From a virus, in the IMG/VR virus record IMGVR_UViG_3300010042_000010, positions 1-49,725 of that record: 49,725 nt of DNA; one strand, given 5' to 3'. Positions 932-38,411 of the stretch are shown here, in pieces; within the stretch, counting starts at the first letter, position 1; the number at the start of each line of letters is the position of its first letter. The notes beneath the pieces were generated by a model that saw only the letters and a list, made by a program, of their open reading frames with translations, was not told the DNA's origin and made no database searches. Both the position numbers and the translations under genes were made by a program.

Positions 932-960
932 AGATTAATGCGCTATGACCGAACCGTCAA
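932..960 (-). promoter_or_regulatory. Conserved phage promoter
   Basis: Read on the minus strand, a -35 TTGACG (960-955) and -10 TAATCT (937-932) are separated by 17 bp. The spacer contains CGGTCATAGCGCAT, shared with other promoters in this window. It overlaps the stop codon of the polymerase gene and lies about 30 bp before the ATG at 901. Confidence 0.8.
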
Positions 961-3665
961 GCGTCCTTACGATAGCGTTTCGCGCGCCAGCCGCCCGCTG
1001 CACGGATTGGCCAGCCTTTGGCCCAAGCCGGCAACGTCTGCATGATCGCCTCGAACTGCTCGATTGTGCCGACGCCCTCCGGAACCTCCGACACCAGCTC
1101 GTCGTGTACACGCAACACCACCGGGTAGCCGGCCTTTTCGAGGTTGACCACGGCGTAGGCCATAATGTCGCGGGCCACGGCCTGCACGACGTTTTCAAAC
1201 AACCGCCCGCCGAAGGTTTTCATACGGACCCAACCAAGCGGCCCCATCTTTGGGTTGTTGTTCCACGTCATAAACGTTATCTCGAGCTGCGACGGCCAGT
1301 CGGGCTTGCGCTTGTGTGAACGCAGGCGGGGGCTGTGGTAGCTGAGCCGGCGCCCGCTGGGGAGAATCGCGTAGAGTACGTCCGACACCACCTCGTAGCT
1401 GATCAGCCGGTAGGTGTACCGCTTGCCCGGGTTTTGAATCGCCGCGATGGCCGCGCCTTCCAAACCGAACAGCTCGTAGCTCGAAGGCTTCCACGGCTTG
1501 CCACGGGTCTGGCCGCCCCATGCTTCAACGATCAGCGGCGAGGCGTCGCGCCATTGCATGATCAGCTCTTTTACTTGGTCGTCGGTCCATGTGTCCGAGT
1601 CGTCAAACTGACGCCAGGCTGGCAGGTAGCCGCCGAAACCTAGACCCAACTCGGCGGGCTTGCCGATCTTTTGCCGGTCCGGGTGTTTCTTGTAGCCGTT
1701 GGCCCTGTACCAGTCCATCGAATGGCCGGTAATGCGAGACGCGGACGCCAAGTAAATGTCGTCTTTACGCTCAAATGCGTCCAAGCGCCATTGCTCGCCG
1801 GCCAGGACTGCGGTTACGACCGCTTCGATAGACGAGTAGTCCGAGCAAATCAGGTCTTTACCCGGGGCGGAAATGAACATTCCCCGGATCACCCCGGAAA
1901 TGGTCAGCATCGCATCGCCAAAGTAATACTCGAGCACGTCGACCGACTGCGTAGCGATCACCGCCAGGGCCGCCGGCACGGCTTCCCAGCACCAACCCTT
2001 CGCCTCTACTTCGGGGTCGGGCGACGTCTCGGTACTGAACGCAGCAGAAGCATTGCACCAAGGGCAGCTGGCACGGTCAAAGGCATAAGGCTGGCGGCAA
2101 GGCATTGCATCGCACCAACGGATTTTGGGGCCAGCCTTCGGCAAATTACCCGGCTGGATATCCGCGTGGGTGTCGCGGCCGGTCCTCGCTCCGTGGTACA
2201 CGAACAGGTCGCAGGCGCGGCCGTCGCGGTTCGAGTGGTACAGCATGGCGAACACTTTTTTAACGCTCGCTGAACCGGTCAGCGCGCGCAGCTCGAGCAC
2301 GCGGCGGACGTCGGCGCCGAGGTCGGTCCGCTTCAATTCGTCTTCAATGCTGTCCGCGTCCATCTTGTCGAGATTTACGCCACGCTCGGACAACCACACC
2401 TTGAGCTTTTGCAGTTGGCTCGGTCGCAGGCCGCACAGCGCGACGGACTCCTGGCCGTAGACGTCCAGCACCTGATTCACAATCGCGATGCAGTTGCGCA
2501 CCGATTCAAGGTCGATGCCGACGCCTCGAAAATTAATCTCCTGATCGGCTAACCAGTAGTCCAGCTCCTGCGGAATAAGGTCCGGAATTAACCGGCTTGC
2601 GTCGCCTTCCGACTCAATGTCGGTATCGCAGTACGCCTCGAGCTTCGCTCCATCCTCCGGGGCGTCCTCGGGTCGCACGCGTAGTGCCGGCGCCTTCTTG
2701 CTGGGCTTCTGCGGCTTACTGAACAAATCGAGCAGCCGTTTGCCCTCGGCGTCTTTTTGCGTTGAGGTGTTGAGCACCTTGCCGAGGTTGGCCAGCGCGC
2801 CGGGCATACTGAACGCGCGGGCCTTGGCCATTGAACAGCGCAGCTGCTTCGGGTTGAGCGGGGGAAAGCCGTACTTGACCTGACAAACAAACGTCCAGAT
2901 AACGCGTTCAAACATGGCGTTGTGGGTTTCGATCAGGCCGCCCGCCGCCAGGTGGTCGAACAAGTCTTGCGGCAGGCCCTGGCCAGGCTTCCAGCGCCGT
3001 TTGCCTTTGCCGTCTTTCAGGTCGTACGACATGGTCAGCACTTCGGTGCTGGGGTGCTCGGCATACACGCGGGCGCCTACCGCGAACAGGCCTTTTTCTG
3101 TGGCGTTGGGCAGGCCGCGAAACGCTCCGAAGGGGTATTTTTCACACGGCGCGACGTACACATAGCCGGACTCGCTGTAGGTCTCAAAGTCCATATCGGC
3201 GAGGACGGTACTAAAGCGACCGCCGGCAGGAACCCGCGTACCGGCGTACAGGAGGCGCGCGGTTGGCTGCTTCTTACCCGGGCGCGGATCGGCTACGCCA
3301 TAAGCTAGCGCCATCGCCTCGTGTTCGGGCACGCCGGTAACGTCGTGTACGTGGCCGTCGGTCTCGAAGGTGCGCCCCCAAAAGTAGCAGGAGGACTCCG
3401 GGCGGTAATGCAGCACCCACGGCTCGGCGGCCTCGGGGTCGTTGGGGTTGACCTCGCCGGCCAGGTAGGCGGCGGCGACGTGGTCGGGGTAGGCCGTGAC
3501 GTTGTACACACGGTCCTCGGCGCGCGGCTCGAAGCCAGACGCCCAAAAATAAGTGCCGCTATCGGCGAAAAACCAAAGCTCGTAAACACGCCCGCCAGGA
3601 TCGGCAACCATTTGCACGGTGGGCGCTTCGTATTTCATCGTTGGAGACCACGCAGGCACCGTCAT
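957..3665 (-). CDS. DNA polymerase, family A, with 3'-5' exonuclease
   Basis: This 902-residue replicative polymerase has exonuclease motifs DFET (159-162), THNAMFE (247-253) and a YCDTD stretch (345-349), then the palm motifs: A, SDYSSIEA (608-615); B, K669 with GFGG (676-679); C, VHDE (853-856). All three polymerase motifs and the exonuclease acidic residues are intact. Two oddities stand out: an N-terminal extension of about 150 residues built from two similar units, and a cysteine cluster (C518, C523, C534, C537) inside the polymerase domain that could bind zinc. The start overlaps the preceding 64-aa gene by 4 bases (ATGA). M10 is a possible later start. It would act as the phage replicase with the SSB and primase-helicase of this window. 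Confidence 0.95.
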   Translation of the reverse strand: MTVPAWSPTMKYEAPTVQMVADPGGRVYELWFFADSGTYFWASGFEPRAEDRVYNVTAYPDHVAAAYLAGEVNPNDPEAAEPWVLHYRPESSCYFWGRTFETDGHVHDVTGVPEHEAMALAYGVADPRPGKKQPTARLLYAGTRVPAGGRFSTVLADMDFETYSESGYVYVAPCEKYPFGAFRGLPNATEKGLFAVGARVYAEHPSTEVLTMSYDLKDGKGKRRWKPGQGLPQDLFDHLAAGGLIETHNAMFERVIWTFVCQVKYGFPPLNPKQLRCSMAKARAFSMPGALANLGKVLNTSTQKDAEGKRLLDLFSKPQKPSKKAPALRVRPEDAPEDGAKLEAYCDTDIESEGDASRLIPDLIPQELDYWLADQEINFRGVGIDLESVRNCIAIVNQVLDVYGQESVALCGLRPSQLQKLKVWLSERGVNLDKMDADSIEDELKRTDLGADVRRVLELRALTGSASVKKVFAMLYHSNRDGRACDLFVYHGARTGRDTHADIQPGNLPKAGPKIRWCDAMPCRQPYAFDRASCPWCNASAAFSTETSPDPEVEAKGWCWEAVPAALAVIATQSVDVLEYYFGDAMLTISGVIRGMFISAPGKDLICSDYSSIEAVVTAVLAGEQWRLDAFERKDDIYLASASRITGHSMDWYRANGYKKHPDRQKIGKPAELGLGFGGYLPAWRQFDDSDTWTDDQVKELIMQWRDASPLIVEAWGGQTRGKPWKPSSYELFGLEGAAIAAIQNPGKRYTYRLISYEVVSDVLYAILPSGRRLSYHSPRLRSHKRKPDWPSQLEITFMTWNNNPKMGPLGWVRMKTFGGRLFENVVQAVARDIMAYAVVNLEKAGYPVVLRVHDELVSEVPEGVGTIEQFEAIMQTLPAWAKGWPIRAAGGWRAKRYRKDA

Positions 3666-3856
3666 AGCGACAGCTCAGCGAGGCGCTGGGTAAACGCTTC
3701 GGCGCTGGCCGCGTCCGTGAAAATAATCTCATCGCCGAGAAACAGCGCCCCAGTTTGGTCAGCGATCCGGTACAGCTCGCGGATATACGCCGCCGCCTTG
3801 ATCAGCTGGGCCGTGTGGATGCGGTCGGTCGGTTGGTAGGTGCGGGGGGTGGCCAT
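3662..3856 (-). CDS. Small hypothetical protein (64 aa)
   Basis: The ATG at 3856 is preceded by GTGAGG with a suitable gap, so it is preferred to the GTG at 3868. The protein has the N-terminus MATPRTYQPTDR, is helical and charged, and is rich in Ala and Glu, with no cysteine cluster, signal peptide or membrane segment. I do not recognise the family. It lies between the SSB terminator (3876-3897) and the polymerase, whose ATG overlaps its stop by 4 bases, so the two are probably translationally coupled. Transcription must come from read-through of the terminator or from an unrecognised promoter. Confidence 0.75.
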   Translation of the reverse strand: MATPRTYQPTDRIHTAQLIKAAAYIRELYRIADQTGALFLGDEIIFTDAASAEAFTQRLAELSL

Positions 3857-3875
3857 TGCGAACCTCACAGAGACG

Positions 3876-3897
3876 AAAAGCCCGGCCGGAGCCGGGC
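3876..3897 (-). terminator. Intrinsic terminator after the SSB gene
   Basis: On the minus strand a perfect 7-bp stem GCCCGGC/GCCGGGC with a 4-base loop is followed by TTTT. It lies 17 bp after the SSB stop codon and would reduce transcription into the polymerase gene. Confidence 0.8.
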
Positions 3898-3913
3898 GAT
3901 TTATACGCTTACT

Positions 3914-4876
3914 TTACTGCCAAGCGGCCAAGCCGTGCGCTACGAGCACTTCGTCGGTCCAACCGGCTTTACGCAGCGAGTCGACGGTATGGCCGGCGTA
4001 TTGCCCGGTCGCCAGCGCTGGCGTGCCTACGAGTTGAGGCACAGCCGCTGCCGGGGCAGGAGATGGCGGTGGCGGCGGTGGTGGGGGAACAGCGCCGGCC
4101 GCTGGCGGAATGTAACCTGTATGCGGTGCAACAGCTGCCGGTGGCGGCGGAGGCACAGCCGCGCCAGGCGCAGGCGGAGGTGGCGGAACAGCCGCGCCCG
4201 GAGCTGGTGGTGGCGGGGGAACTGCACCGGCCGCAGCAGGTGGCGGCGGAGGCGTGCCAGGCATACCGCCCACAGGCACCTCGGAAGCGCCGGCCGCCGT
4301 GGTTTGGCCGAAGCCGACACCGGACGCGTCCACGGTCTTGGTCAGGACGATTTCCGGGCCGTAACCGTTCTTGGCAATCATTTCATAATTGAGATACATG
4401 CCGGGCGATTCGGTCGACTTGTTAAACGCTGTCGAACCCTTCACTTGGATGTAATCACCTGGGCGGATAGCGTTCGGGTCGGTCAGTTGCGCCGAGCCAT
4501 CCTTGTTGAACAGCTTCGGCTGGTAGCTGCCGGAGAACCAAATAACCCAGTGGCCTTTATAGCCTTCTTGGTCGCATGGCTTATTGCCCTTCTTGTTCGG
4601 CACGGCGCTGTCGCCGTCTTTGATTTTCCACGCGAACGTCGGAGCTTGGGCAACCGGGCCGGCAGCGCCGTGGCCTTCGGCCCAAATCTTGGCGCCCCAT
4701 TCGGTTTGAGACCAGTGCTGTTCACCTTGCTTGGCGATGGCACAGGCGAACGACCACTGCGTACGCGGGTCGCCGCTGGAGAACGTCAGCGGTACGCCCT
4801 TGCTGTCTTTGGACTCGCCTTCGTACAACGAACCGCCGACCATGCGGCCGGGCGGAAACAGAATTTCTACACTCAT
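3914..4876 (-). CDS. Single-stranded DNA-binding protein, DUF2815-like
   Basis: The 320-aa protein has an N-terminal OB-type domain of about 190 residues, with segments typical of phage DUF2815 SSBs (IRPGDYIQVKGS, SPGMYLNYEMIA). A long Pro-Ala linker with five or more PPPPP tracts follows. It ends in a short conserved tail containing GHTVDSL and GWTDE, often seen at the C-terminus of phage DNA-binding proteins. It would coat single-stranded DNA during replication and recombination. The ATG overlaps the stop of the DUF2800 gene (ATGA). A consensus-like promoter at 4945-4973 lies inside that upstream gene and a terminator follows at 3876-3897, so SSB can be made as a separate abundant transcript. 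Confidence 0.88.
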   Translation of the reverse strand: MSVEILFPPGRMVGGSLYEGESKDSKGVPLTFSSGDPRTQWSFACAIAKQGEQHWSQTEWGAKIWAEGHGAAGPVAQAPTFAWKIKDGDSAVPNKKGNKPCDQEGYKGHWVIWFSGSYQPKLFNKDGSAQLTDPNAIRPGDYIQVKGSTAFNKSTESPGMYLNYEMIAKNGYGPEIVLTKTVDASGVGFGQTTAAGASEVPVGGMPGTPPPPPAAAGAVPPPPPAPGAAVPPPPPAPGAAVPPPPPAAVAPHTGYIPPAAGAVPPPPPPPPSPAPAAAVPQLVGTPALATGQYAGHTVDSLRKAGWTDEVLVAHGLAAWQ

Positions 4877-6027
4877 GGGGTAAACACCTTTTTGGCGTGG
4901 TTGGTATCAACGGGAACCAGTTTCATGGCCCCCGGTACGTGCTCATAATAACTCGCTATGACGGCAGGGTCAATGCGGAGTTTCTTCAATTTCTCTTCCG
5001 CTTGCGGCGGGGTCAAAGGCTTCTGTTCGGCCATCAAATCGACACCGCCCAGCAATGCCCCGAGCGAACGGAACTCTTGCGGTTTAACGTCTGGCTTCCA
5101 CTTACGGCGGCCAGCACCTGCGCGCATACCATAGAACGGCACGCTTTGGCCGCGCTGTTCGTAGTACGTCGCCTGCTCGGCTAAACCGCTGCGGCGGGCC
5201 TCGAGTAGCGCCAGCTTTTGGTCAAGCCAACGCAGTTCCAAACCAACCGCCTGCGGAGGCAAGTCAACAGGCAACGACTGCTGCGCTTGGTCCATCGCCG
5301 TGGCTGCCTCCTGGGCGAGCACCGTACAAGCGCGGCGGCCCGGACAGAACTCGCATTCGGGGCCGGTGTGATAGTGTTTCTCCGCGTCCGGACCGAGGGC
5401 CAGGGTGGTACGTTCGGTGATGGTGGCCCACAGCGGCCGCAGACGAGCAACCGTTGTTTGCCAGGTACGTATCGGCCCTTCGAAGTGAAAGGCACGAGGC
5501 TGGCAAATGTGGATAAAGATTTTTACCCGCGCCAAATCCTCTTCGCTCAAATTCAGCCGCTCGAGGGCGCCCCGTGCGTATGCCACGACCTGCCAGCATT
5601 CGTACGGGTCGACCTTTAAGTGGCCGGTTTTGAGGTCGAACAGGTGCAGCTCGAACACACGCGGCAACCACACGTCACTGTCGGGCGTGCCGAACATTTC
5701 CGGGTGCAGCATGGTCAGCGACATGCGCCGTTCAACGTTGAGCAGACCCCATGCCGATTGTGGGTCAACGATGGACGCAACGTGGTTTACGTAGACCTGA
5801 GCCATGTCAATAAGCTCGTCGTCTAACAAAATCCCATTCGGCGCCATGTCTCCCGGTTTCGGTTCGTGGGTCTTTAACAGGCTGTACATTGCCCAGTGGC
5901 TCGCCTCGCCTTCGGCCGCCGACGGGTCTTCGATCAGTGTCGGAAACTTGAGGCTAAGCGGCACGGAGGCCGGGCACTGTACGACCCGTGCCAACGTGGA
6001 CGGGCCTACCGGACTATGGGCACTCAT
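4873..6027 (-). CDS. DUF2800 family RecB/Cas4-like nuclease
   Basis: This 384-aa protein shows the PD-(D/E)XK pattern of DUF2800: GTPDSD (113-118), FDLKTG (D131 and K133), and QVVAY (146-150) in place of the usual QxxxY. One cysteine near the N-terminus (C18) and a cluster C225, C228, C234 match the 4-Cys iron-sulphur arrangement of Cas4/AddB-type nucleases. The likely role is a DNA exonuclease in phage recombination or replication, paired with the SSB encoded next. The ATG at 6027 overlaps the preceding stop by 4 bases and is preferred to TTG at 6033. Confidence 0.85.
   Translation of the reverse strand: MSAHSPVGPSTLARVVQCPASVPLSLKFPTLIEDPSAAEGEASHWAMYSLLKTHEPKPGDMAPNGILLDDELIDMAQVYVNHVASIVDPQSAWGLLNVERRMSLTMLHPEMFGTPDSDVWLPRVFELHLFDLKTGHLKVDPYECWQVVAYARGALERLNLSEEDLARVKIFIHICQPRAFHFEGPIRTWQTTVARLRPLWATITERTTLALGPDAEKHYHTGPECEFCPGRRACTVLAQEAATAMDQAQQSLPVDLPPQAVGLELRWLDQKLALLEARRSGLAEQATYYEQRGQSVPFYGMRAGAGRRKWKPDVKPQEFRSLGALLGGVDLMAEQKPLTPPQAEEKLKKLRIDPAVIASYYEHVPGAMKLVPVDTNHAKKVFTP
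4945..4973 (-). promoter_or_regulatory. Internal conserved promoter for SSB
   Basis: On the minus strand TTGACC (4973-4968), a 17-bp spacer and TATTAT (4950-4945). The spacer contains GTCATAGCG, the core of the recurrent promoter family, although the site lies within the DUF2800 coding sequence. It is about 70 bp before the SSB start codon. Confidence 0.65.
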
Positions 6028-6935
6028 GCACAAACCGCTTCGAGGTCGGCCAGAACTTTAGCGCGGCCTTCCGGTGTGATTTTGGTCACTTCCATCATGC
6101 CTTTAAGGTTCGACTCGGCGAGCACCATTACCAGCATGTCAGGCGTGAGCTTGCCCAGCTCTTGCAACTGCGTGATGCGGCGGAAAATGTCGCCAGGGGC
6201 CACAGTCGCGCCAGCTGCTGGAGGGGGCGGAGGTGGTGCCGGTTGCTCAGTCGCCGGAGCGGTCGCAGCTGGCGGTGGTGGCGGAGGGGTTACGGCAGCG
6301 CCGCCTTGTGCCACAGCGCCGGCCGAAGGGTTGGCGTTGCGCGCCGTGTCACCCGGGGCGTACTCGGTTGGCGCTGGCGGCGGAGTGCCGGCGCTCGCAT
6401 TGGCCGCCAACAAGGCGCGGTTTTCGGCCTCAATCGCCGGAACAATGGAACGGTCCAAATTCTTGCGGTACTTCCAAGTTAAATCTTTGTTCTTGGTCTT
6501 CGCTTCGCCATGAATGCGGGCGTCCCACGGCATACCGGCGCTATCTAGCTCGCCGCTCGCGGTTGAAGTGGGGGCGGGCGGCACGTTCGCGGGCGGCGTC
6601 GTATCGCTTGCAGGTGGCACAGTCGCAGCGCCAGGCGTGGAGTCCAAAGGGGCGGTAGCCGGGGCCGAACCCCCGAACGCCTGACGTGCTTTTGCCATCA
6701 AGTCGGCGTCTTCGGCATTCGCTGCCGGCGGCACAACGGTGGTCGTCAACGACACGTCGCCGACTTGTTCGGTACGCTGGACGGCGCCCGGCGGCAACGG
6801 CGCGGAAGCGGTCGCGGTGCGCTGCACCTGGCCATGTTGGTGCACGTCTTTGGCGATATCTGCCAACACCTGAGCAAGCATAAGCAGCTCGCGTGAGGTG
6901 TGGCTGTGGGGGTTGGTCACTTCGATTTTAATCAT
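6024..6935 (-). CDS. Proline/alanine-rich replication-module protein
   Basis: The 303-aa protein has a short helical N-terminus, long low-complexity Pro/Ala/Thr stretches with two PPPPPP tracts, and a central segment AGMPWDARIH followed by a lysine-rich stretch. That WDARIH segment recurs in uncharacterised phage proteins encoded beside SSB and RecB-like nucleases. The C-terminal 60 residues look like a helical domain. Its function is not known. Position at the head of the SSB/nuclease/polymerase operon suggests a replication or recombination accessory, possibly a scaffold binding SSB. The ATG overlaps the previous stop by 4 bases. Confidence 0.8.
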   Translation of the reverse strand: MIKIEVTNPHSHTSRELLMLAQVLADIAKDVHQHGQVQRTATASAPLPPGAVQRTEQVGDVSLTTTVVPPAANAEDADLMAKARQAFGGSAPATAPLDSTPGAATVPPASDTTPPANVPPAPTSTASGELDSAGMPWDARIHGEAKTKNKDLTWKYRKNLDRSIVPAIEAENRALLAANASAGTPPPAPTEYAPGDTARNANPSAGAVAQGGAAVTPPPPPPAATAPATEQPAPPPPPPAAGATVAPGDIFRRITQLQELGKLTPDMLVMVLAESNLKGMMEVTKITPEGRAKVLADLEAVCA

Positions 6936-7309
6936 TCTGGCGATACCTGGCTGATGTGAAAGGGGTTAAGCGAATTGACGTTCGCGCAACGGTGGTGGGT
7001 GGGGTTGTTGGTCCAACTGCGCGCGGCGTTCCAACGGTTGCGTACGCCTCGTTTTGCGCGGCGCATAACAGCGTCGATAAGCTCCGGCGACTGCGGATCG
7101 CGGTTGGTCGAATTCCAGCGGCTGGTGCGAACAGCCCGATACCAGAACGCCCGGGCTTTGCTCGGCGCACCGCGCCCTTTGCCGCCGGTAGAAGCGGTTT
7201 GCACTTGCGCTTGGCTTACTTTGGTCAAGGCCGCACCGAGCCCCGTAGAGGCGCTGAGACCCAACGCCATGGCCGCCAATACGGAACGGCCGATACCTGT
7301 TGAACGCAT
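6932..7309 (-). CDS. Hypothetical basic protein with hydrophobic N-terminus
   Basis: This 125-aa protein is the first gene of the minus-strand replication operon. Start ATG 7309 has AGGAG eight bases upstream. The N-terminal 30 residues (MRSTGIGRSVLAAMALGLSA) resemble a signal sequence or weak anchor; the rest is Arg/Asn/Trp-rich and basic, with an ELIDAVMRRAKRG stretch and no acidic catalytic motif. I do not recognise a family. The promoter at 7343-7371 lies about 35 bp upstream and the stop overlaps the next ATG. Confidence 0.7.
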   Translation of the reverse strand: MRSTGIGRSVLAAMALGLSASTGLGAALTKVSQAQVQTASTGGKGRGAPSKARAFWYRAVRTSRWNSTNRDPQSPELIDAVMRRAKRGVRNRWNAARSWTNNPTHHRCANVNSLNPFHISQVSPE

Positions 7310-7327
7310 TCGTTTAACTCCTGTTGG

Positions 7328-7357
7328 TTGACTTCGGAGCGAACACTAATCGACAAT
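7328..7357 (+). promoter_or_regulatory. Possible promoter for the SF2 helicase operon
   Basis: TTGACT (7328-7333), an 18-bp spacer and GACAAT (7352-7357) lie 30 bp before the ATG at 7388. The -10 is weak (4 of 6). It physically overlaps the opposing promoter at 7343-7371. Confidence 0.4.
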
Positions 7358-7371
7358 GACCGCAACGTCAA
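7343..7371 (-). promoter_or_regulatory. Conserved phage promoter, replication operon
   Basis: Minus-strand TTGACG (7371-7366), a 17-bp spacer containing CGGTCAT, and TAGTGT (7348-7343). It is a divergent member of the recurrent promoter family. The transcript would start about 30 bp before the ATG at 7309. Confidence 0.7.
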
Positions 7372-7387
7372 CTAGCGGTTAAATTCA

Positions 7388-9316
7388 ATGGCTCAATTCC
7401 AACCACTCGCCACGCCACTGGCTGGCGCGGTCCGGCAGGTTATCCATTTACGTTGGTATCAAGCCAAAGCTTTTGAAGAGATTAAAAGCGCCTGGGCGCA
7501 AGGCTTCCCGAACGTTTTAGCGGTGCTGCCGACAGGCGCGGGCAAGACGGTGCTGTTCTCCGAGATTGTCCGAGACCACGGCGCGGCGGCCTGTGTAATC
7601 GCCCACCGCCAGGAGCTGGTTTACCAAATCTGCGCGGCCCTAAACCGGGTCGGTGTGCGCTTCCGGATCATCGCGCCTAAACTGGTGGTGCAGAAAATTA
7701 CCGAGCTGTTGCACAAGAAGCAGGGCGTCTGTTTTTACGACCCTAACGCGCTCGTTGCCGTGGCCGGTGTGGATACCCTGAACAATATCGACAAGGGGCA
7801 ACGCAAGCATACTTACGAACGCTGGTGTAAGAGCGTTAGCCTTTGGGTGATGGACGAAGCGCACCACGTCCAAGCCAACAACAAATGGGGCAAGGCGACA
7901 AAGAAATTCCCCGACACCGCTAAAGGGCTCGGCGTGACAGCCACACCTGAGCGCGGCGACGGCTGCGGCCTGGGCCGTGACCCGGTTGGCTCCGGGCTGT
8001 TCGACTACATGGTGCTCGGGCCGGATATGGCCTACCTCATACAGGATGGCTACCTAACGCCGTACCAAATCTGGACGGTGCCTTGCACCATTCAATACGA
8101 GCAAATCGACGTCGGCGCGTCCGGCGACTTTGTGCAAGCCAAGCTCGTGGCTGCCGAGGACGCAGACGGCAAGCTCGTAGGCAACATCGTAGAGACCTAC
8201 CTAAAGCGCACGCCAGGTAAACGGGCCATTGCCTTTGTGTCCAGCGTGGCGCGGTCTGAGCTGCTGGCCGAAGCCTTCCGCGCCAAGGGCGTACGCGCCA
8301 AAGCCCTGGATGGCAACACCGACCCCGCCGAGCGATCCAACACCCTGGAAGCGTTCGAGCGTGGCGAACTGGACGTGCTGACCAACTGCGCGCTATTCGG
8401 CGAGGGTACGGACATTCCGGCGGTTGAGGTCGTGATAATGGGCACCGCCACGGCCTCGCTGGTGAATTACACGCAGTGGTTTGGGCGAATGCTGCGCCTG
8501 TTCCTGACCAAAGCCGAAGCGCAAGGCTACGACCAATTGACCAGCGAGCAGCGCCGGGCTGTGATCGCCAACAGTGCGAAGCCGTTCGGCATCTTGCTTG
8601 ACCACGGTGGCAACGTCCTACGCCACGACGGCCCGCCGGACATTCCAAAGGTCTGGACGCTGGCGCACCGGCCAAAGCGCACCTCCGCCAATGCTCCGAT
8701 GCCTTATCGCATGTGCCCCAATCCGGGTTGGGCGCCTGTCGAGGGCGTCGACTGGGTCGCCTACCGCCTGGCTGGCTGGAGTAACGAGCAGATGATAGAG
8801 CACCGGTTGCTGTACGACCGTGGCGTGGCCTGCATTCAACCTTACCCGCGCCTGCACCGGTCTTGCCCGCACTGCGGCTTCATTCCGGAACCGCAAGGGC
8901 GCAGCGAGCCGGGGCATGTGGATGGTGACTTAGAGCTGTTGGACCCGGAAACCCTGGCCGAACTGCTGGCCGCGCGTAACGCCGCGCTGTTGCCGGAGGG
9001 TGAGTATTGGGCGTGGGTCTCTTCGCAAAACTTTGACCACTTTACGAGCATGGGCAAATTGAACCGGCACAAAGAGAAATTGGCGGAAGCGTTGGCGCTG
9101 GAGTCGGCCATGGGCTGGTTCGGCGGATTCTGGAAAACCCGTGGCGACAGCGACACGGAAATACAGCGGCGGTTCTATATTTACTTCCGCGTCGACGTGG
9201 TCACGGCCTGCACGCTTCCCCGCGCCGACATGGCCAAATTGCGCGACCAAATCGTGGCGCGACTCTCGTTTGACGGCTTCGTCATACCGGGTTACTCTGA
9301 CGCTTCCGTAGCCTAA
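7388..9316 (+). CDS. SF2 DEAD/DEAH-type DNA helicase
   Basis: This 642-aa protein carries the full set of SF2 motifs: Walker A PTGAGKT (48-54), DEAHH (156-160), TATP (184-187), a GEGTDIP motif V near 338 and QWFGRMLR (363-370) as motif VI. It resembles the restriction-type/RecQ-like helicases encoded by many siphophages. After the helicase core, cysteines C443, C482, C493 and C496 (RSCPHCG) could form a zinc finger, followed by an unassigned C-terminal domain of about 140 residues. It probably unwinds or remodels DNA during replication or recombination. It is divergently transcribed from the replication operon, with the promoters overlapping. Confidence 0.93.
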   Translation: MAQFQPLATPLAGAVRQVIHLRWYQAKAFEEIKSAWAQGFPNVLAVLPTGAGKTVLFSEIVRDHGAAACVIAHRQELVYQICAALNRVGVRFRIIAPKLVVQKITELLHKKQGVCFYDPNALVAVAGVDTLNNIDKGQRKHTYERWCKSVSLWVMDEAHHVQANNKWGKATKKFPDTAKGLGVTATPERGDGCGLGRDPVGSGLFDYMVLGPDMAYLIQDGYLTPYQIWTVPCTIQYEQIDVGASGDFVQAKLVAAEDADGKLVGNIVETYLKRTPGKRAIAFVSSVARSELLAEAFRAKGVRAKALDGNTDPAERSNTLEAFERGELDVLTNCALFGEGTDIPAVEVVIMGTATASLVNYTQWFGRMLRLFLTKAEAQGYDQLTSEQRRAVIANSAKPFGILLDHGGNVLRHDGPPDIPKVWTLAHRPKRTSANAPMPYRMCPNPGWAPVEGVDWVAYRLAGWSNEQMIEHRLLYDRGVACIQPYPRLHRSCPHCGFIPEPQGRSEPGHVDGDLELLDPETLAELLAARNAALLPEGEYWAWVSSQNFDHFTSMGKLNRHKEKLAEALALESAMGWFGGFWKTRGDSDTEIQRRFYIYFRVDVVTACTLPRADMAKLRDQIVARLSFDGFVIPGYSDASVA

Positions 9317-14746: not shown

Positions 14747-14768
14747 GCCCGCCTTGTGCGGGCTTTTT
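14747..14768 (+). terminator. Intrinsic terminator, recurrent stem
   Basis: A 6-bp stem GCCCGC/GCGGGC with loop CTTGT is followed by five T. It closes the small-gene operon. The same stem recurs at 24058, 29782 and 32209. Confidence 0.9.
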
Positions 14769-14827
14769 ATTGGGCGTATCGTAGACAGAACAAGACTCTG
14801 CGAGACTATAAGGAACACAGGAGCAAT

Positions 14828-15295
14828 ATGGAAAAGCTATTGACGCGTCCCGAGATGGCCGCGCTACTCCAAGTGAGTGCCAAAACCGTACAGCGGTTGA
14901 CCACCGCCGGCACCATCCCCCACCTCAAAGTTGGCAACGAGTCGCGCTACGACCGACAGGCCGTTGTGGCTGCCTTGACCGTGGCACCTGAGCCCGATCC
15001 GGACGCGGTGCGTTGGATGCTGGTATTTGCCCCGGGCGCTGTGTCGCCTATCAGTGAGGTGTCATTCTCGAGCCGCGATTTGGCCGACAAATACGCCGAC
15101 ATTTGCGCGAAGCCTACGCCGCTTTTCCCGGAAGGGCAGCCACGGCCGCGCGTTGTGCCACTGTACCAACACGCCGACCGCGTGCGCGAAGCCGCACAAG
15201 AGCTGGTTCACAACTGCGCGCCTGTAGCGCCTCAACGCCTGTCGTGGGCTGCGTTGGTCGCTGCGCTGGAGGCTTCCCCATGCTCGACACGGTAG
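14828..15295 (+). CDS. HTH (MerR/excisionase-type) DNA-binding protein
   Basis: AGGAG at 14819-14823 supports ATG 14828; an upstream in-frame ATG at 14756 lies in the terminator and is rejected. The N-terminal 50 residues are a classical HTH_17 domain (LTRPEMAALLQVSAKTVQRL, then a VGNESRYDRQAV wing). The remaining 100 residues are unassigned. Its position directly before the primase-helicase, with an overlap of 16 bases, suggests a role in origin recognition or regulation of that gene (inference). Confidence 0.8.
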   Translation: MEKLLTRPEMAALLQVSAKTVQRLTTAGTIPHLKVGNESRYDRQAVVAALTVAPEPDPDAVRWMLVFAPGAVSPISEVSFSSRDLADKYADICAKPTPLFPEGQPRPRVVPLYQHADRVREAAQELVHNCAPVAPQRLSWAALVAALEASPCSTR

Positions 15296-17883
15296 CCGAG
15301 GCGTTAAGCCCTGGCGGACCGCTTCACGCGCTTACGGCTTACCGGCATTTTTGCGTCTATGAGATACGGCCGAAGGCTGGCCGCGAATACAAATCCGATA
15401 AGGTGCCGGTGCTGCCAAAGAAATGGGGCACGCCGGCCAATCTGCTGACCGCTGACGAGGCGATAATGGCGGCCTACAGCTGGCAAGGTGCGCACCCGGT
15501 AGGCATTGGCTACCTGTTGCAGCCGACCGACCCTTTCTTTTTCGTCGACGTCGACACGGCGGTAACCGACGCCGGCCAGTGGCAACCGCTGGTACACGAG
15601 CTGTTTCAGCTGCTGCCAGGCGCTGCCTTTGAGGTGTCAACCTCCGGTCGCGGTTGCCACTTTATCGGCCGCTGCCCGGACTTCCCGCACTCGTGCCGCG
15701 ACGACTCGTTGGGCCTCGAGTTCTACACGCAGAACCGCCTGATCGCACTGACCGGACAGTCAGCCGTAGGCGATGCGCTGGCGTGGTTGCCCCTCGAAAC
15801 GGCTGCGCTCGGAGCCAAATGGTTTCCGCCCAAGGACGAGAACACCACCGCCGTTGACTGGGTCGACGAGCCCGTAGAGGAATGGGAGGGGCCGGAGGAT
15901 GACGACGAGCTAATAGCCAAGGCGCTTAAATCCTCCCGCAAGGTCGACGCTGCCGAGGTGTTCGGCGGTAAAACCAAAGTGCGCGCCGAATTCCATCACC
16001 TTTGGGAGGCCGACGTGGCAACCCTGGCCGCCGTCTACCCGACCAAAGAAGACAAGCCCTACGATGCGTCCGGCGCCGACCAAGCCCTGGCCAACGCCCT
16101 GGCCTTCTGGACCGGTAAAAACCCCGTCCGGATTGAGCGCCTTATGCGCCGCTCCGCGCTCGCCCGCGACAAGTGGGACAGCCACACGCAGTACATGACG
16201 TGGACCGTAGAGAATGCCGTGCGCGACTGTACGTCGGTGCTCGGGTCCGGCAAGAAGCCACTCACAGAACTGCCCGCCCATATCGCGCCCGCCATCGCCG
16301 GTTCGCGCCCTCCGATCGACACGCGATCGCACACGCTGGCCAACACTGAGACCCCCGGACTAGAGCCCTCCGCGCCTGCTGCCGCGACACTGCCGGCGGG
16401 CGTGCCGAGCTGGGAAGAGGTGGCCAGCGCACAGCAGCCAACCGGCCTTGCACCGCTGCACCGATCCGGTCACCAACTGCTGCCGCCCGAGCTGCAAGAG
16501 CAACTGTTTGCCGGCTGCGTGTACATCCGCGACAGCAACAAAATTGCTATCCCCGACGGCACCTATCTGGATAGTGCACGCTTTAACGTGGCGTACGGTG
16601 GCTATGAGTTCCAACTGAACCCAGCCGAGCGCAAAGCGGTAACGACCCGCGCCTGGGACGCCTTTACACAGAGCCAGGTGCTCGACTGGCCAACGGCGCA
16701 CTCGGTCTGCTTCCGTCCGGAGGAACCGCCAGGCGCCCTTATTGAGGCCGAAGGCTGGCGACTGTTTAATGGCTTCGTGCCAATCCATACCAAGCGCATC
16801 GCGGGCGACATTGCACCGTTCCTGGGTCTACTGGAGCGCCTGCTACCGGACGAGCGCGACCGCCGCATTCTGCTTACATGGATGGCTCGCGTCGTCCGCT
16901 CGCCAGGCTTCAAGGCGCAGTGGTGGCCGGTGCTGCAAGGCGCTGAGGGTAATGGTAAAACGATGCTGATTCAGGCGATGGAATTCGCCGTGGGCAGCCG
17001 ATACAGCTACATGCCGGACATGGCCAAGATGGCCAAGAAAGAGGGCGGGTTTAACGCCTGGGTCCGCAACTGCCTGTTTATCGGAATGGAGGAAGTGTAC
17101 GTACAGAACCGCCGCGACTTTCTCGAAGCGATCAAACCTTGGGTAACCAACACCCGGCTCGAAATCGAAGGCAAAGGCGTTGACCAGTACACAGGCGACA
17201 ACCGCGCCAACGGCATGATGACCACCAACCACCGCGACGGCGTGCCGACCAACATCGACAACCGCCGCTACTGCGTGTTCTTTACCGCCCAACAGTGTGC
17301 CGAGGACGTGGAAGCCGCCGGCATGATGGGCAACTATTTCCCCGACCTCTACGACTGGTTTTATGGCCGCCGCAAGTGGGCGGAGCACGGCAGCAACTAC
17401 GGCCGGGCGATTATTAACAACTATTTGCACGAGTACGAGCTGTGCGCCGAGTTCGACCCTATGGGTGGCTGCCAGCGCGCGCCGCAAACATCCACATCGG
17501 CGGAGGCCCGCGAGGCTAGCCAAGGGAAGCTCGAGCAGGAGGTGCTGGAGGCTGTACAGAGTGGCGAGCCTGGCTTTGCCGGCGGCTGGGTATCTACCAC
17601 CATGTTGGCCAAGCTGTGCGACCGCCTGCGTACCTACCTGCCACCCTCCAAGCGCGACAAGCTGCTGGCTGACCTCGGCTACGTAAAGCACCCGGCGCTG
17701 GCGGATTATGGCCGCACGCCTAACCCTGTGCAGCCGGACGGGAACAAAACAAGGCTGTACGTCAAACGCGGTCATTTGGCCCTCAACCTGCAAAAGCCTG
17801 CCGAGGTGTCCAAGGCGTATAGCGACGCGCAACAGTCGGGAGGTGTGCTTGCAGCAGCGGCCGCAGCGTTCGGAAACCAATAG
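15280..17883 (+). CDS. Primase-helicase (AEP primase plus SF3-like helicase)
   Basis: GGAGG at 15268-15272 sets ATG 15280, giving 867 aa. The N-terminal third is an AEP/Prim-Pol-type domain with FFVDVD (87-92), STSGRGCHF (120-128) and LEF (146-148) as catalytic motifs. Next comes a helical segment seen in NrS-1-like primases (ALAFWTGKNPVRIERL, ARDKWD). The C-terminal half is a DUF5906/SF3-type ATPase with Walker A GAEGNGKT (554-561), Walker B LFIGMEEV (599-606) and a sensor-1 TTNHRD (648-653). It should prime and unwind for the family A polymerase. The repeat-rich non-coding region follows at once. Confidence 0.92.
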   Translation: MLDTVAEALSPGGPLHALTAYRHFCVYEIRPKAGREYKSDKVPVLPKKWGTPANLLTADEAIMAAYSWQGAHPVGIGYLLQPTDPFFFVDVDTAVTDAGQWQPLVHELFQLLPGAAFEVSTSGRGCHFIGRCPDFPHSCRDDSLGLEFYTQNRLIALTGQSAVGDALAWLPLETAALGAKWFPPKDENTTAVDWVDEPVEEWEGPEDDDELIAKALKSSRKVDAAEVFGGKTKVRAEFHHLWEADVATLAAVYPTKEDKPYDASGADQALANALAFWTGKNPVRIERLMRRSALARDKWDSHTQYMTWTVENAVRDCTSVLGSGKKPLTELPAHIAPAIAGSRPPIDTRSHTLANTETPGLEPSAPAAATLPAGVPSWEEVASAQQPTGLAPLHRSGHQLLPPELQEQLFAGCVYIRDSNKIAIPDGTYLDSARFNVAYGGYEFQLNPAERKAVTTRAWDAFTQSQVLDWPTAHSVCFRPEEPPGALIEAEGWRLFNGFVPIHTKRIAGDIAPFLGLLERLLPDERDRRILLTWMARVVRSPGFKAQWWPVLQGAEGNGKTMLIQAMEFAVGSRYSYMPDMAKMAKKEGGFNAWVRNCLFIGMEEVYVQNRRDFLEAIKPWVTNTRLEIEGKGVDQYTGDNRANGMMTTNHRDGVPTNIDNRRYCVFFTAQQCAEDVEAAGMMGNYFPDLYDWFYGRRKWAEHGSNYGRAIINNYLHEYELCAEFDPMGGCQRAPQTSTSAEAREASQGKLEQEVLEAVQSGEPGFAGGWVSTTMLAKLCDRLRTYLPPSKRDKLLADLGYVKHPALADYGRTPNPVQPDGNKTRLYVKRGHLALNLQKPAEVSKAYSDAQQSGGVLAAAAAAFGNQ

Positions 17884-17904
17884 ATAGACAACCGCTGTAT
17901 CTCG

Positions 17905-17930
17905 AGCGCTCCTAGTGGGCGCTTCTTTTT
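17905..17930 (+). terminator. Intrinsic terminator after primase-helicase
   Basis: A 7-bp stem (AGCGCTC paired with GGGCGCT, one G-T wobble) with a 5-base loop is followed by TCTTTTT. It lies 22 bp after the stop codon. Confidence 0.8.
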
Positions 17931-17940
17931 GCCTGTAGTT

Positions 17941-17962
17941 ATTCGGTGTACGAATCGATTCG
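17941..17962. other. Nested ATTCG/CGAAT dyads
   Basis: ATTCG-GTGTA-CGAAT (17941-17955) overlaps a perfect 12-bp palindrome CGAATCGATTCG (17951-17962). Three half-sites stand in 22 bp at the entrance to the repeat region, suggesting a protein-binding site. Confidence 0.5.
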
Positions 17963-17986
17963 ACCGTTCTAATAGGCGGTAGAAAA

Positions 17987-18265
17987 TGGGGTATGGTTTG
18001 GGGTAAACCATTTGGGGTATCGCAAGTTATTGAAATGTATAGCAAAAGGGGCGTTTTACCCCAAAAACCCAATTTTATGCCCAGTCCAATACACACACAT
18101 GTGTGCACACGTAGCGCGTGTGTGCGTAGCGTGCGCATGCGTATAGCAAGTGTGTATATATTTGGGGTATTGGGGTATTTACAGTATAAATACTAATAGA
18201 ATCAGTAAGTTAGCGTATACCCCAAATCATACCCCAAGCGTACCCCAACGGAAAATTTGGGGTAA
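17987..18265. repeat. TTGGGGTA iteron-like array, candidate origin or packaging site
   Basis: Ten copies of (T)TTGGGGTA(T/A) lie in 280 bp. Those on the plus strand start at 17987 (TGGGGTAT), 17997, 18011, 18161, 18170 and 18256; those on the minus strand (TACCCCAA) are at about 18056, 18217, 18229 and 18241. Two close pairs and a cluster of four flank an AT-rich stretch (18141-18220). The array sits between the primase-helicase and the terminase small subunit, with no convincing gene in 17884-18341. Iterons at a replication origin, or terminase-binding sites of a cos/pac locus, would each fit. Confidence 0.75.
18089..18145. repeat. Alternating purine-pyrimidine tract
   Basis: Three contiguous blocks of perfect purine-pyrimidine alternation (18089-18113, 18114-18128, 18129-18145), rich in CA/TG and GC steps, lie inside the iteron-like array. 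Such tracts can adopt left-handed or easily melted structures. This is sequence composition only. Confidence 0.6.
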
Positions 18266-18341
18266 ACGGGCTCCGGTTTGGCTTGGGGCGTGGTTGTGGC
18301 GTAGGCTGGGCGCTATCGGAACGCATTTAGGGGCTTTTATC

Positions 18342-19064
18342 GTGGCAAGACATGGTCCGGAACTGGACGCTAAAGAGAAATTGTTCGTCGAAACGTACAT
18401 ACAGACGCGGGACGCTCGCGGATCGGCTTTGCACGCTGGATACAGCCTCACAGTCGCACGTTCTACCGCTTACCTCTGGGTCAGTTCGCCGTTTGAGAAA
18501 AAACGCGTATATGAGGCCGTACAGGACGGTTTAGAGAAACTGGTACGAAAGTCCCGAATCAGCAACGCGCAGATCGAGGAACGTTTAGAGCGGATCGCCT
18601 TCGCCAACCCTCGCGACCTAATCGACCTGCAACGCGGGTGCTGCCGGCACTGCTACGGCGAGAACGGCGGCTATCAGTGGACCGAGGCGGAGTATTACGC
18701 GGCGGTTGAGGGGGCCGAAAAGGCGCGCGGAAAAATGCCAGCCTGGGGCGGGGGCATCGACTTTGACCCGTTCAAAGACCCCAACCCGGAGTGCAAGAAC
18801 TGCGTAGGTGTAGGTGTCGAACGGGTCGTACCAAAGGACACCCGCGACTACTCGCCGGACGCTGCGGCGCTGTACGCAGGCGTCAAGATCACAAAGCAGG
18901 GCCTAGAGATTAAGACCCACAACCAGCTCGAGGCGCTGCAACTGCTCGCCAAAATGCGCGGCGTGTTGGTCGACAAAAAAGAGCTGTCAGGGCCTGGCGG
19001 TGCCGCGCTGATACCGAGCCGCATTGAGCTGATCGCCGTAGACGAAGCGGAAGACGAAGAATGA
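18342..19064 (+). CDS. terS: Terminase small subunit
   Basis: The chosen start is GTG 18342, with AGGGG at 18329-18333, eight bases upstream; upstream in-frame ATGs fall inside the repeat array. The 240-aa product begins ARHGPELDAKEKLFVETYI, the HTH start typical of Terminase_2 proteins, with ARSTAYLWV as the recognition region. A CxxC pair (C101, C104) and a second pair (C151, C154) suggest a zinc-binding insertion before the oligomerisation region. It binds the packaging site and activates the large subunit, which is encoded next with a 4-base overlap. Confidence 0.88.
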   Translation: MARHGPELDAKEKLFVETYIQTRDARGSALHAGYSLTVARSTAYLWVSSPFEKKRVYEAVQDGLEKLVRKSRISNAQIEERLERIAFANPRDLIDLQRGCCRHCYGENGGYQWTEAEYYAAVEGAEKARGKMPAWGGGIDFDPFKDPNPECKNCVGVGVERVVPKDTRDYSPDAAALYAGVKITKQGLEIKTHNQLEALQLLAKMRGVLVDKKELSGPGGAALIPSRIELIAVDEAEDEE

Positions 19065-20320
19065 CCGAGACCGCACAGGTACGACTGCCGCGCAAGCTGG
19101 TAAAGGTGTTCCGCAAGCCTCGCGGCTCTGTCCGCTACCGGTGCGCGCACGGCGGCAGGGGCTCGGGTAAGTCGTTCGGCTTTGCCAAGATGGCAGCCAC
19201 CTTTGGTGTGGTTGAGGGCCTGCGCTTCCTGTGCGGCCGTGAGCTGCAAGGGTCCATTAAAGAATCGTTCTACGCGGAGCTGAAAAACGCCATCGCGAGC
19301 GAGCCGTGGCTAGAGGCTGCCTACGACGTCGGGGTCGACTACATCCGGTCGCGGATCAACAGCACGGAATTCCTGTTCAAGGGCCTGCGGCACAACCTGG
19401 GCTCGGTCAAGTCGATGGCGCAAATCGACATTTGCATTCTCGAGGAAGCCGAAGACATTCCGGAGGAAAGCTGGTTAGCCCTCGAGCCGACCATACGCGC
19501 CCCGAAGTCTGAAATATGGGTCATTTGGAACCCTCGTACCGAGAACAGTCCGGTAGACACCCGATTCATCAAAACGCAAGACCCGGACGCGGTCTGTGTC
19601 GAGATGAACTACACGGATAACCCATGGTTTCCGCAGGTGCTGGAGACGTTGCGCGCCAAGCAACAGAAAAGCCTCGAGCCGGAAATGTACGCGCACATTT
19701 GGCTGGGCAAATACCTCAAGCACTCCAAGGCAACAATCTTTGCCAAGAAATGGCGCGTCGATACGCTGCAAACCGGCAGCGATTGGAACGGCCCCTACTT
19801 CGGCCTCGACTTCGGCTTTGCCAACGATCCGACAGCGGCGGTCAAGTGCTGGATCAGTCCGGACGAAACGACGCTGTATATCGAGCGGGAGTGTGGACGC
19901 GTGGGCCTGGAGCTGGACGAAACCGCCCAGTATCTAATCGACCGCCTGCCAGGGGTCGTAACGCATACCATGCTGGCGGACAACGCCCGTCCGGAGTCCA
20001 TTAGCCTGCTTAAGCGACGCGCACCTGGGCGGCCTAACCTGCCGCTGATCGAAGCCACAACGAAGGGGCCGGGCAGCGTCGAAGACGGCATAGAACACAT
20101 GAAAACGTTCGACATTGTCGTGCACCCGGACTGCACGGAGATGCAAAACGAATTCACCCTGTACAGCTACAAGGTCGACCGACTCACAGGCGACGTACTG
20201 CCGGTGATCGTCGACGCGAACAACCACTACGTAGACGCCACACGCTACGCCCTGGAAAAGGTGATGAAAGCCAAGCAAACGGGCGGCCTGATGATTCCAG
20301 CACGGCATGTTCGCGGGTAG
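19061..20320 (+). CDS. terL: Terminase large subunit
   Basis: This 419-aa packaging motor ATPase/nuclease has Walker A GGRGSGKS (31-38), Walker B CILEEAED (125-132) with catalytic glutamate, and the coupling motif WNPRT (156-160). The RNase H-like nuclease domain has acidic residues in GLDFGFANDP (D250) and LADNARPES (D307), and a terminal HYVDATRYAL. It belongs to the PBSX/Terminase_3-type large subunits. It is coupled to terS by an ATGA overlap. The next gene is under a separate promoter. Confidence 0.95.
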   Translation: MTETAQVRLPRKLVKVFRKPRGSVRYRCAHGGRGSGKSFGFAKMAATFGVVEGLRFLCGRELQGSIKESFYAELKNAIASEPWLEAAYDVGVDYIRSRINSTEFLFKGLRHNLGSVKSMAQIDICILEEAEDIPEESWLALEPTIRAPKSEIWVIWNPRTENSPVDTRFIKTQDPDAVCVEMNYTDNPWFPQVLETLRAKQQKSLEPEMYAHIWLGKYLKHSKATIFAKKWRVDTLQTGSDWNGPYFGLDFGFANDPTAAVKCWISPDETTLYIERECGRVGLELDETAQYLIDRLPGVVTHTMLADNARPESISLLKRRAPGRPNLPLIEATTKGPGSVEDGIEHMKTFDIVVHPDCTEMQNEFTLYSYKVDRLTGDVLPVIVDANNHYVDATRYALEKVMKAKQTGGLMIPARHVRG

Positions 20321-21215: not shown

Positions 21216-21520
21216 CGGGGCGTCTCGAGGTGGGCGGGCTGGCGTTGGTGATCAGGTGCGCGGAGAACCCGGAAATGGTCGGCAAATGCGTAACGCTCGA
21301 ACGGCGGGTAGCACCGGGCGAGGCTGTCCGTTTTGGGGGTATGTCGTTCCGTCCCGCAAAAGACGTGTGCTGGATCGTTTCCGGCGACGGCCTGCAATCC
21401 TTTAACGCTTACCGGGGCAATCGGTCGGTGCCTTACGCCGGTTTTGCCGAGCGTAACCTGATGCCACTGCGCGGCGACGAACAACCACAACTGCAACGAG
21501 TAGAGGAACTGACGACATGA
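21212..21520 (+). CDS. Hypothetical protein (102 aa)
   Basis: ATG 21212 overlaps the previous stop by 4 bases. The product is beta-rich (LEVGGLALVIRC, GKCVTLERRVAPGE), compatible with a small SH3-like or OB-like fold, but no motif identifies it. Its stop overlaps the next ATG by 4 bases. Confidence 0.68.
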   Translation: MTGRLEVGGLALVIRCAENPEMVGKCVTLERRVAPGEAVRFGGMSFRPAKDVCWIVSGDGLQSFNAYRGNRSVPYAGFAERNLMPLRGDEQPQLQRVEELTT

Positions 21521-21966
21521 GCTTACGCAAGAACTGCACCGCGCGAGGCTGCACGCGGGTGGTACAAAACACCGGCAGCGATTTTTGCGGGGAACACGCC
21601 CGCCCGGACGTGCCGCCCAAAGCGCCCCCGCCGCGCACCTACCGCTGTGCGTGCCCGGGTTGCCTGTCGAAGGTGGCGAATAAAGGCGATTGGTGCGAGG
21701 AACACGGCCGCCGCAGCAAGTCCATTGCCGATTGCAGGGCTAAGTTCACCGGGCCGCAATATTTCGGAGGCATCCCCGAGCAAACGCTTGGCACGCTAAC
21801 CGATGCGGAACGCCAGGTGGTAAACCTGCTCGCCGAAGCCTGGAACCGCTACCTGGACCTGCCCGAACAGAAGCCAGGCAGCCACCCGGAAATGTGCGCC
21901 ATGATCAACCATTGCCAGGAGCACGTTCTGGCCCGGGTCGGGTGGCGGCTACTGAACAACAAATAA
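21517..21966 (+). CDS. Double zinc-knuckle protein (149 aa)
   Basis: Two successive C-C-C-H type units are visible: CTARGCTRV with FCGEHA, then CACPGCLSKV with WCEEHG, separated by a proline-rich linker. The C-terminal half is helical, with three more Cys/His residues. It is likely a zinc-binding DNA, RNA or protein-interaction module. No family name is assigned. It is the last gene before a second conserved promoter. Confidence 0.72.
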   Translation: MSLRKNCTARGCTRVVQNTGSDFCGEHARPDVPPKAPPPRTYRCACPGCLSKVANKGDWCEEHGRRSKSIADCRAKFTGPQYFGGIPEQTLGTLTDAERQVVNLLAEAWNRYLDLPEQKPGSHPEMCAMINHCQEHVLARVGWRLLNNK

Positions 21967-37749: not shown

Positions 37750-38411
37750 GCCTCGCGGCGGATATACAAGGCCTCGAACCGGGGCAGGTGGTCTACCTCT
37801 ACGACTTGGACGCGACCGAAATCGGGGCGGAGCTTTACCGCTTCCATAGCTACCCCAACATCGGCAACATCCTTTGGCAGGGGAACCAATACCAGCCGTG
37901 GCCGCTTGAGGCGGAAGGCTTCGACCTGGCCAGCGGCACGTCGCCGTCGCCTAAAATGAAGCTGGGCAACGTGGGTGGCTTTATAACCGCGCTTACCCTG
38001 TCGTTTGACGACCTGAACGGGGCGGTTTTGACCCGACGCCGCACACTCGGCAAATATCTTGACGGGCGCCCCGACGCGGACCCGGACGAGGAATTTCCGC
38101 CGGATGTTTGGTACGTGGAACAAAAGCTTACCGAAACGGCCGAATACGTCGAGTTTGAAATGGCTAGCGCCATGAACTTTGACGGTGTAAGGCTGCCTCG
38201 TCGGCAAATCATCGCCAACAACTGCCCCTGGCGCTACCGTTCGACCGAGTGCAGCTATACAGGGCCACCCGTGGCGGATGAACGCGACATCATCACCACG
38301 GACGCGGCCAAGGACAAATGCGGCAAGCGCCTACAGAGTTGCAAACTCCGGTTTGGGCAAACGGCGCCGCTGCCCTTTGGCGGTTTCCCAGCAGCAGGTT
38401 TAATTAGATGA
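37746..38411 (+). CDS. L: Minor tail protein L-like
   Basis: ATG 37746 (ATGA overlap) gives 221 aa. The C-terminal part carries four cysteines (NNCPW, TECSYTG, DKCGKR, QSCKLRFG) in the arrangement that binds an iron-sulphur cluster in lambda gpL. A tip component; order M-L-K-I-J is conserved here. Confidence 0.9.
   Translation: MSLAADIQGLEPGQVVYLYDLDATEIGAELYRFHSYPNIGNILWQGNQYQPWPLEAEGFDLASGTSPSPKMKLGNVGGFITALTLSFDDLNGAVLTRRRTLGKYLDGRPDADPDEEFPPDVWYVEQKLTETAEYVEFEMASAMNFDGVRLPRRQIIANNCPWRYRSTECSYTGPPVADERDIITTDAAKDKCGKRLQSCKLRFGQTAPLPFGGFPAAGLIR

Follow-up and report, generated by a model that had tools for sequence, protein, structure and literature searches.

A two-orientation octamer array beside an NrS-1-type PrimPol-helicase gene is very probably a phage replication origin

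The window analysed here is a stretch of viral DNA of 49,725 nucleotides (IMG/VR record IMGVR_UViG_3300010042_000010), a linear record without end repeats. It contains a gene (15280–17883, plus strand) for an 867-residue protein that Pfam and PDB sequence and fold matches assign to the NrS-1-type PrimPol-helicases and that is our proposed initiator. Upstream of it lies the gene of a small HTH protein (14756–15295, plus strand; excisionase-like by HTH_17, Pfam E 2.9e-9, and by PHROG), which is a possible accessory DNA binder. Downstream are terS (18342–19064, plus strand; Terminase_2, Pfam E 4.7e-16), a neighbour that is not thought to be part of the site, and terL (19061–20320, plus strand; Terminase_3, Pfam E 5.9e-24), a further neighbour. 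The phage also encodes a family A DNA polymerase (957–3665). A short protein encoded after terL (21517–21966) has Cys/His pairs at its N-terminus, and over its final 57 residues it matches a PHROG that is named DNA ligase.

In the PrimPol-helicase, Pfam recognises the helix-bundle domain (HBD) NrS1-1_pol-like_HBD at residues 264–320 (E 2.8e-19) and DUF5906 (E 7e-17), with DUF5906/VapE-like helicase matches at residues 511–672. The best PDB matches are NrS-1 chains, by sequence and by fold, and the NrS-1 C-terminal chain 6k9e is also matched (E 3e-5). The AlphaFold model, covering the first 335 residues (mean pLDDT 87), has NrS-1 N300 structures as its top fold match (E 5.6e-15), with a TM of only about 0.42, either because the domain arrangement differs or because the relative placement is uncertain. 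The catalytic acidic residues D90/D92 are invariant with NrS-1, and R296, K298 and Y305, which align with R249, K251 and Y261 of the NrS-1 HBD, are invariant in all aligned relatives. Judged by its sequence, the window enzyme is an NrS-1-type PrimPol with an HBD and a C-terminal helicase domain. In vitro, the NrS-1 PrimPol starts DNA synthesis de novo at 5'-TTTGGTTA-3' and, less strictly, at GTG; priming is severely reduced in its HBD mutants R249D, K251D and Y261A (PMC8718748).

The gap between the primase stop at 17883 and the terS start at 18342 holds nine exact copies and one near copy of the octamer TTGGGGTA, six on the plus and four on the minus strand, spanning 17986–18264 (about 280 bp). 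The near copy, ATGGGGTA, with one mismatch, comes first (17986–17993, plus) and is followed by exact copies at 17998–18005 and 18012–18019 (both plus), 18057–18064 (minus), 18162–18169 and 18170–18177 (both plus, the conserved tandem pair in alignments of relatives), 18218–18225, 18230–18237 and 18241–18248 (all minus) and 18257–18264 (plus). Sixty first-order shuffles of the window gave at most five copies of any octamer per 280 bp, as against the nine observed, so that the ten copies in both orientations described in an earlier note on this DNA are real and beyond chance. The same note held that coding cannot explain them, and this agrees with our findings: the array is intergenic, and the open frame that crosses half of it in the terS frame (18150–19064) shows Terminase_2 homology only after 18342. 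The array ends 78 bp ahead of terS. Across the remaining 49.4 kb there are only two more exact copies, at 37851–37858 and 38450–38457; they lie among the tail genes, 600 bp from each other, and both read on the minus strand.

The copies form two blocks. On the left are three plus-strand boxes, an IHF-like site on the minus strand and one minus-strand box; on the right are three minus-strand boxes and one plus-strand box. An alternating purine-pyrimidine core (18086–18160, unstranded), running CACACA...TGTGTG...GCGCATGCG, follows the left block, and an A/T-rich segment (18178–18217, unstranded) lies between the tandem pair and the right block. This segment, with 75% A+T in a genome of 60% G+C and its best 35-mer in the top 1%, is a candidate DNA-unwinding element. 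Segments of this sort are local extremes of composition in most arrays examined as well as in the window. The AT-rich core of the earlier note has two parts, of which 18178–18217 is A/T-rich, while 18067–18160 alternates almost perfectly between purine and pyrimidine and is not AT-rich. The best 40-mer of the core at 18086–18160 is 97% alternating, a level never reached elsewhere in the sampled window. Z-DNA-prone alternating stretches occur mid-array in the window and in six other loci (L256, L301, L270, L315, L298 and L281), in which they are rare elsewhere; other arrays do without them.

Two putative IHF sites, so named from their sequence, frame the middle of the array. The right one, AATCAGTAAGTTA (WATCARNNNNTTR; 18200–18212, plus), has a position that is conserved among relatives and meets the IHF consensus WATCAANNNNTTR (PMC8942017) if R is accepted at the sixth position. 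The left one, TTTCAATAACTTG (18023–18035, minus), has one mismatch to WATCARNNNNTTR and is inverted with respect to the right site, with 177 bp between them. The array region folds as a large imperfect dyad (z -6.9), which the inverted iterons alone would yield, and it has no match in Rfam. An intrinsic terminator (17904–17937, plus; a stem of eight pairs and a T run) lies 3' of the primase gene. It is followed by an ATTCG dyad, ATTCGgtgtaCGAAT (17941–17955, unstranded), recognised by sequence and fold; the nested ATTCG dyads that had been described as flanking the array are limited to this one, on the left side only, and conservation of it was not seen.

The window box TTGGGGTA agrees in six of eight letters with the NrS-1 octamer TTTGGTTA, for which Zhu et al. 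2017 is reportedly the primary source; the probability that a random octamer matches this well is about 0.015. Since the two words are not identical, we infer by homology that the window PrimPol is specific for its box. In the NrS-1 genome (AB746912, L247), the only exact copy of the octamer is the complement, TAACCAAA, at 17198, and it falls within a two-orientation array (17062–17377) of no fewer than 11 AAGTGTAAC/GTTACACTT units. As in the window, this array stands between the PrimPol gene, which it directly follows, and terS. This genome is said to hold two copies of the 8-nt recognition sequence, one per strand, and the octamer sites have been suggested by the authors to be the origin (PMC7102993), whereas we found no TTTGGTTA on the plus strand of AB746912. 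The two phages share a homologous PrimPol with an HBD and a ring helicase, an array between primase and terS, and a G/T-rich box ending in TA with copies on both strands. They differ in the box itself, which is TTTGGTTA/GTTACACTT in NrS-1 and TTGGGGTA in the window, and in that the window phage additionally has a family A DNA polymerase and IHF-like sites; no IHF-like site was found in the NrS-1 array. ORF NRS1_29, annotated at 17055–17456 of AB746912, is read through these repeats and is unlikely to be a real gene.

A search with an HBD-primase alignment yielded 80 viral loci whose primases share about 40% identity with that of the window. For the genome scan, a mixed-family alignment (A1) was too diverse and a closer one (A3) worked. 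Near-identical phages were found neither in INPHARED by megablast nor by single-sequence search of viral and genome contigs. Many of the 80 loci carry two-orientation noncoding arrays. Their boxes are of the TCGGGGTAT, CGGGGTA and GGGGTAT types in L314, L259, L321, L270 and L290; GGGGTA, GGGAGTA, GGTGTA and GGGTA are frequent, and CGGGAGTA, AGGTGTA, TGGGTA, CCAGTA and CCCCGTAT are variants. With G+C-only words set aside, the top hexamer for two-orientation clusters was GGGTAT (7 of 72 loci), GGGGTA reaching five, and Markov controls gave no GGGGTA clusters of this kind. Tandem-repeat clusters in coding regions (Scuro, MSW-3, L281, L289 and L293) were not counted as arrays, being almost all in one orientation.

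This variety of boxes bears on the idea that the GGGG runs are a G-quadruplex signal and not a sequence-specific box. TTGGGG is a known G-quadruplex-forming repeat, and the GGGG runs in the window boxes are what the idea has in its favour. Its chances are very slim given that the copies are divided between the strands, with at most two G4 runs adjacent, and that relatives use GGGAGTA, AGGTGTA, TGGGTA, CCAGTA, AAGTGTAAC or TGTGACA at the same place.

Beyond the boxes, many relatives share a core of a box pair, an A/T-rich spacer, an IHF-consensus site and an inverted box. Thirteen aligned cores read, in order, A/T-rich sequence, GGGGTA-TA-GGGGTA, about 20–25 A/T-rich bases, the 13-mer AATCAATGACTTA, which is the IHF consensus WATCAANNNNTTR, a few bases and ACCCC. 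A box pair followed by the IHF consensus was found in 15 of the 80 HBD loci and in none of 238 controls, which were viral contigs selected for holding TTGGGGTA pairs (loci from an octamer-first search were reused for this purpose); among pair-bearing loci the association has P = 8e-9, by regular expressions tuned on the same loci as were counted. Mirrored IHF-like pairs 163–180 bp apart occur in 8 of 88 HBD loci (the window, with 177 bp, included) versus 3 of 306 controls, and the other orientations tested were not enriched. The architecture itself was recognised by inspection, and the tuning of the expressions on the counted loci applies to these locus counts generally. The octamer by itself has no diagnostic value, as none of the 49 viral loci from the octamer-first search, each with three or more TTGGGGTA copies, has an HBD primase.

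The position of the array, 78 bp before terS, also raises the question of whether it belongs to the terminase. Packaging sites classically lie beside or inside terS, and in most relatives in which terS was found the array directly precedes it, which would fit a cosB- or pac-like site, as the earlier note had offered, at which TerS would attach to the boxes and packaging would begin from a cut nearby. We compared 80 loci with related TerS proteins, sorted by the presence of an HBD, a test largely independent of the tuned expressions above. At least two GGGGTA boxes stood upstream of the related terS in 9 of 12 HBD-positive records but in none of 37 HBD-negative records (P = 1e-7), which were required to be at least 28 kb long and to have enough sequence on the upstream side; limited to HBD-positive records outside the discovery set, the count was 6 of 8 (P = 3e-6). 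In the few HBD-negative loci with boxes, terS lies within 2.3 kb of a contig end, so that the primase side is missing. Conversely, in three HBD-PrimPol relatives (L270, L261 and L273) the array is ahead of a minor tail gene, with no terS; this gene is phrog_4688 in L270 and L273 and a clear homologue in L261. In Psp6 (L250), a GTTACC/GGTAAC array sits directly 3' of the primase and about 1 kb before terS. Arrays 3' of the primase are also present in the bacterial genomes of Marinobacter halodurans (L416) and a Thiotrichaceae MAG (L422), in neither of which a recognised terS directly follows. From the TerS comparison and the arrays before the tail gene, we conclude that the array tracks the PrimPol and not the terminase, and a packaging site is accordingly improbable.

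Two further observations concern repeats near terS. In Psp6, a second repeat cluster (GATAGAG, 7199–7594) lies directly before terS, apart from the GTTACC array. Eight loci (L368–L371, L374, L376, L380 and L383) carry four copies of AACG(T/C)CACT, in two orientations, within 600 bp upstream of a related terS, with no HBD primase in those tested (all eight but L369).

Among the other named phages, Vibrio phage 138 carries a TCTGTCACA/TGTGACAGA array in the gap from primase to terS, together with two oppositely oriented matches to the IHF consensus. The virulent phages JD001, SppYZU01 and Scuro, whose primases have an HBD, show no detectable array or core in their whole genomes, and no array was seen within the stretches fetched from 9NA, MSW-3, OLIVR4 and RHph_Y21. 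The link between array and HBD is therefore common and not universal, and other origin designs must exist, as the three array-free genomes indicate. Looking for the array in relatives had been proposed in the earlier note as a way of refuting it; applied in part, this check counts those three phages on one side and the many array-bearing relatives on the other.

The array-free phages also bear on a regulatory reading, in which the upstream HTH protein or a repressor binds the boxes as a multi-site operator controlling a late (terS) promoter. The array does lie where early genes give way to late ones, and the primase has an HTH gene as its neighbour in the window and in relatives. Yet HTH- or TetR-annotated genes adjoin the primase in array-less JD001, SppYZU01 and Scuro as well, no sigma-70-like promoter was matched at 17800–18420, and the mirrored layout around an A/T-rich middle, like the NrS-1 octamer, suggests priming and not repression. 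We regard an operator as having only a small chance of being correct.

We are instead confident that the array is the phage's replication origin, with (T)TTGGGGTA as the box that its own PrimPol-helicase, encoded just upstream, recognises. Features expected of an iteron origin are present: the repeats are clustered beyond chance, noncoding and beside an initiator gene, a candidate unwinding element lies within them, and array and initiator are linked across relatives, if not universally. The origin option of the earlier note is thereby strongly supported, by the adjoining HBD PrimPol, by the NrS-1 octamer inside an equivalent array and by recurrence with HBD PrimPols. The array is very probably where the primase-helicase starts DNA copying, the start being deduced from these features. 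The GC skew of the window, which had been suggested as a check, has no switch at 18 kb and is uninformative at the array.

From the established enzymology of the NrS-1 and pRN1 PrimPols, we infer that the HBD recognises the boxes, that the helicase ring melts the DNA and that both strands are primed. The origin would be a mirrored array around an easily melted middle, made up of the left block, the alternating stretch, the box pair, the A/T-rich segment and the right block. The PrimPol-helicase would collect on the boxes, and IHF (or HU), going by the consensus matches, would bend the DNA at the two mirrored sites and so join the half-origins. The SF3-type helicase domain would then open the A/T-rich middle, the HBD would read the boxes, now single-stranded, as priming sites on each strand, and the primers would be extended in both directions by the phage family A polymerase. 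Priming by the window PrimPol would be expected next to TTTGGGGTA and to depend on R296, K298 and Y305. As the NrS-1 assays used single-stranded templates, recognition of the duplex box could depend on another domain.

A broader reading, to which we give about even odds, is that these sites make up a widespread family of phage origins that has so far gone undescribed. Each would consist of iterated, mirrored copies of the word at which its PrimPol primes, set between two inverted IHF sites 160–180 bp apart, and one protein would recognise, open and prime the origin. The IHF frame and A/T-rich spacer would be fixed and the box variable (GGGGTA, GGGAGTA, GGTGTA, CCAGTA, TGTGACA or AAGTGTAAC), as if box and HBD coevolved.

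Several known origins resemble the proposed one in part. In the origins of satellite phage P4 and the staphylococcal SaPIs, one initiator joins origin binding, helicase activity and, in P4, priming, and iterons flank a meltable segment. By description these share with the window a multifunction initiator and iterons around a meltable segment, but their iterons are unrelated in sequence, the primase of P4 alpha is of the TOPRIM type, and no HBD PrimPol is fused to SaPI Rep. Iteron plasmid and lambda origins likewise combine iterons, an IHF-consensus site and an A/T-rich element, whereas in the window the initiator is itself the primase, not a loader of host DnaB, and the iterons are in both orientations. 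In the replicons pRN1 and Bordetella phage BIP-1, an origin or putative origin lies directly 3' of a prim-pol/SF3 helicase gene and is described as a stem-loop, explicitly non-iteron (PMC4234260). The window site shares this place 3' of an archaeo-eukaryotic prim-pol/SF3 helicase gene, but it is an array of box repeats, whose inverted copies would by themselves give its dyad fold; we see it as an iteron form of the prim-pol 3'-origin arrangement with a mirrored IHF frame added.

The earlier note had expected a new site type. This applies to the exact octamer and not to the kind, as an iteron origin of a PrimPol initiator is already known. The family-wide architecture appears to be undescribed in the open-access papers searched, a set of incomplete coverage, and the in vivo origin of NrS-1-type PrimPol replicons had previously only been suggested, from octamer sites in one genome. 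The arrays provide a signature by which origins can be recognised in a large group of uncultured phages. They tie it to an enzyme whose structures have been solved and whose priming residues are known, and they offer natural pairs of HBD and box sequences from which a recognition code could be derived. Because they lie beside related primases in many phages, the origins of a poorly mapped group become predictable and testable, and the start of replication can be predicted for many phages from metagenomes, as well as for prophages in named hosts, Marinobacter halodurans among them.

Two annotations near the primase genes deserve mention. In Klebsiella phage JD001 (L005/L246), gp48, beside the primase, is annotated as terminase large subunit, as is gp34; gp48 may be a DEAD helicase, as found at that position in relatives. 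In Psp6, the primase (3779–6321) is annotated as two overlapping genes, as if frameshifted.
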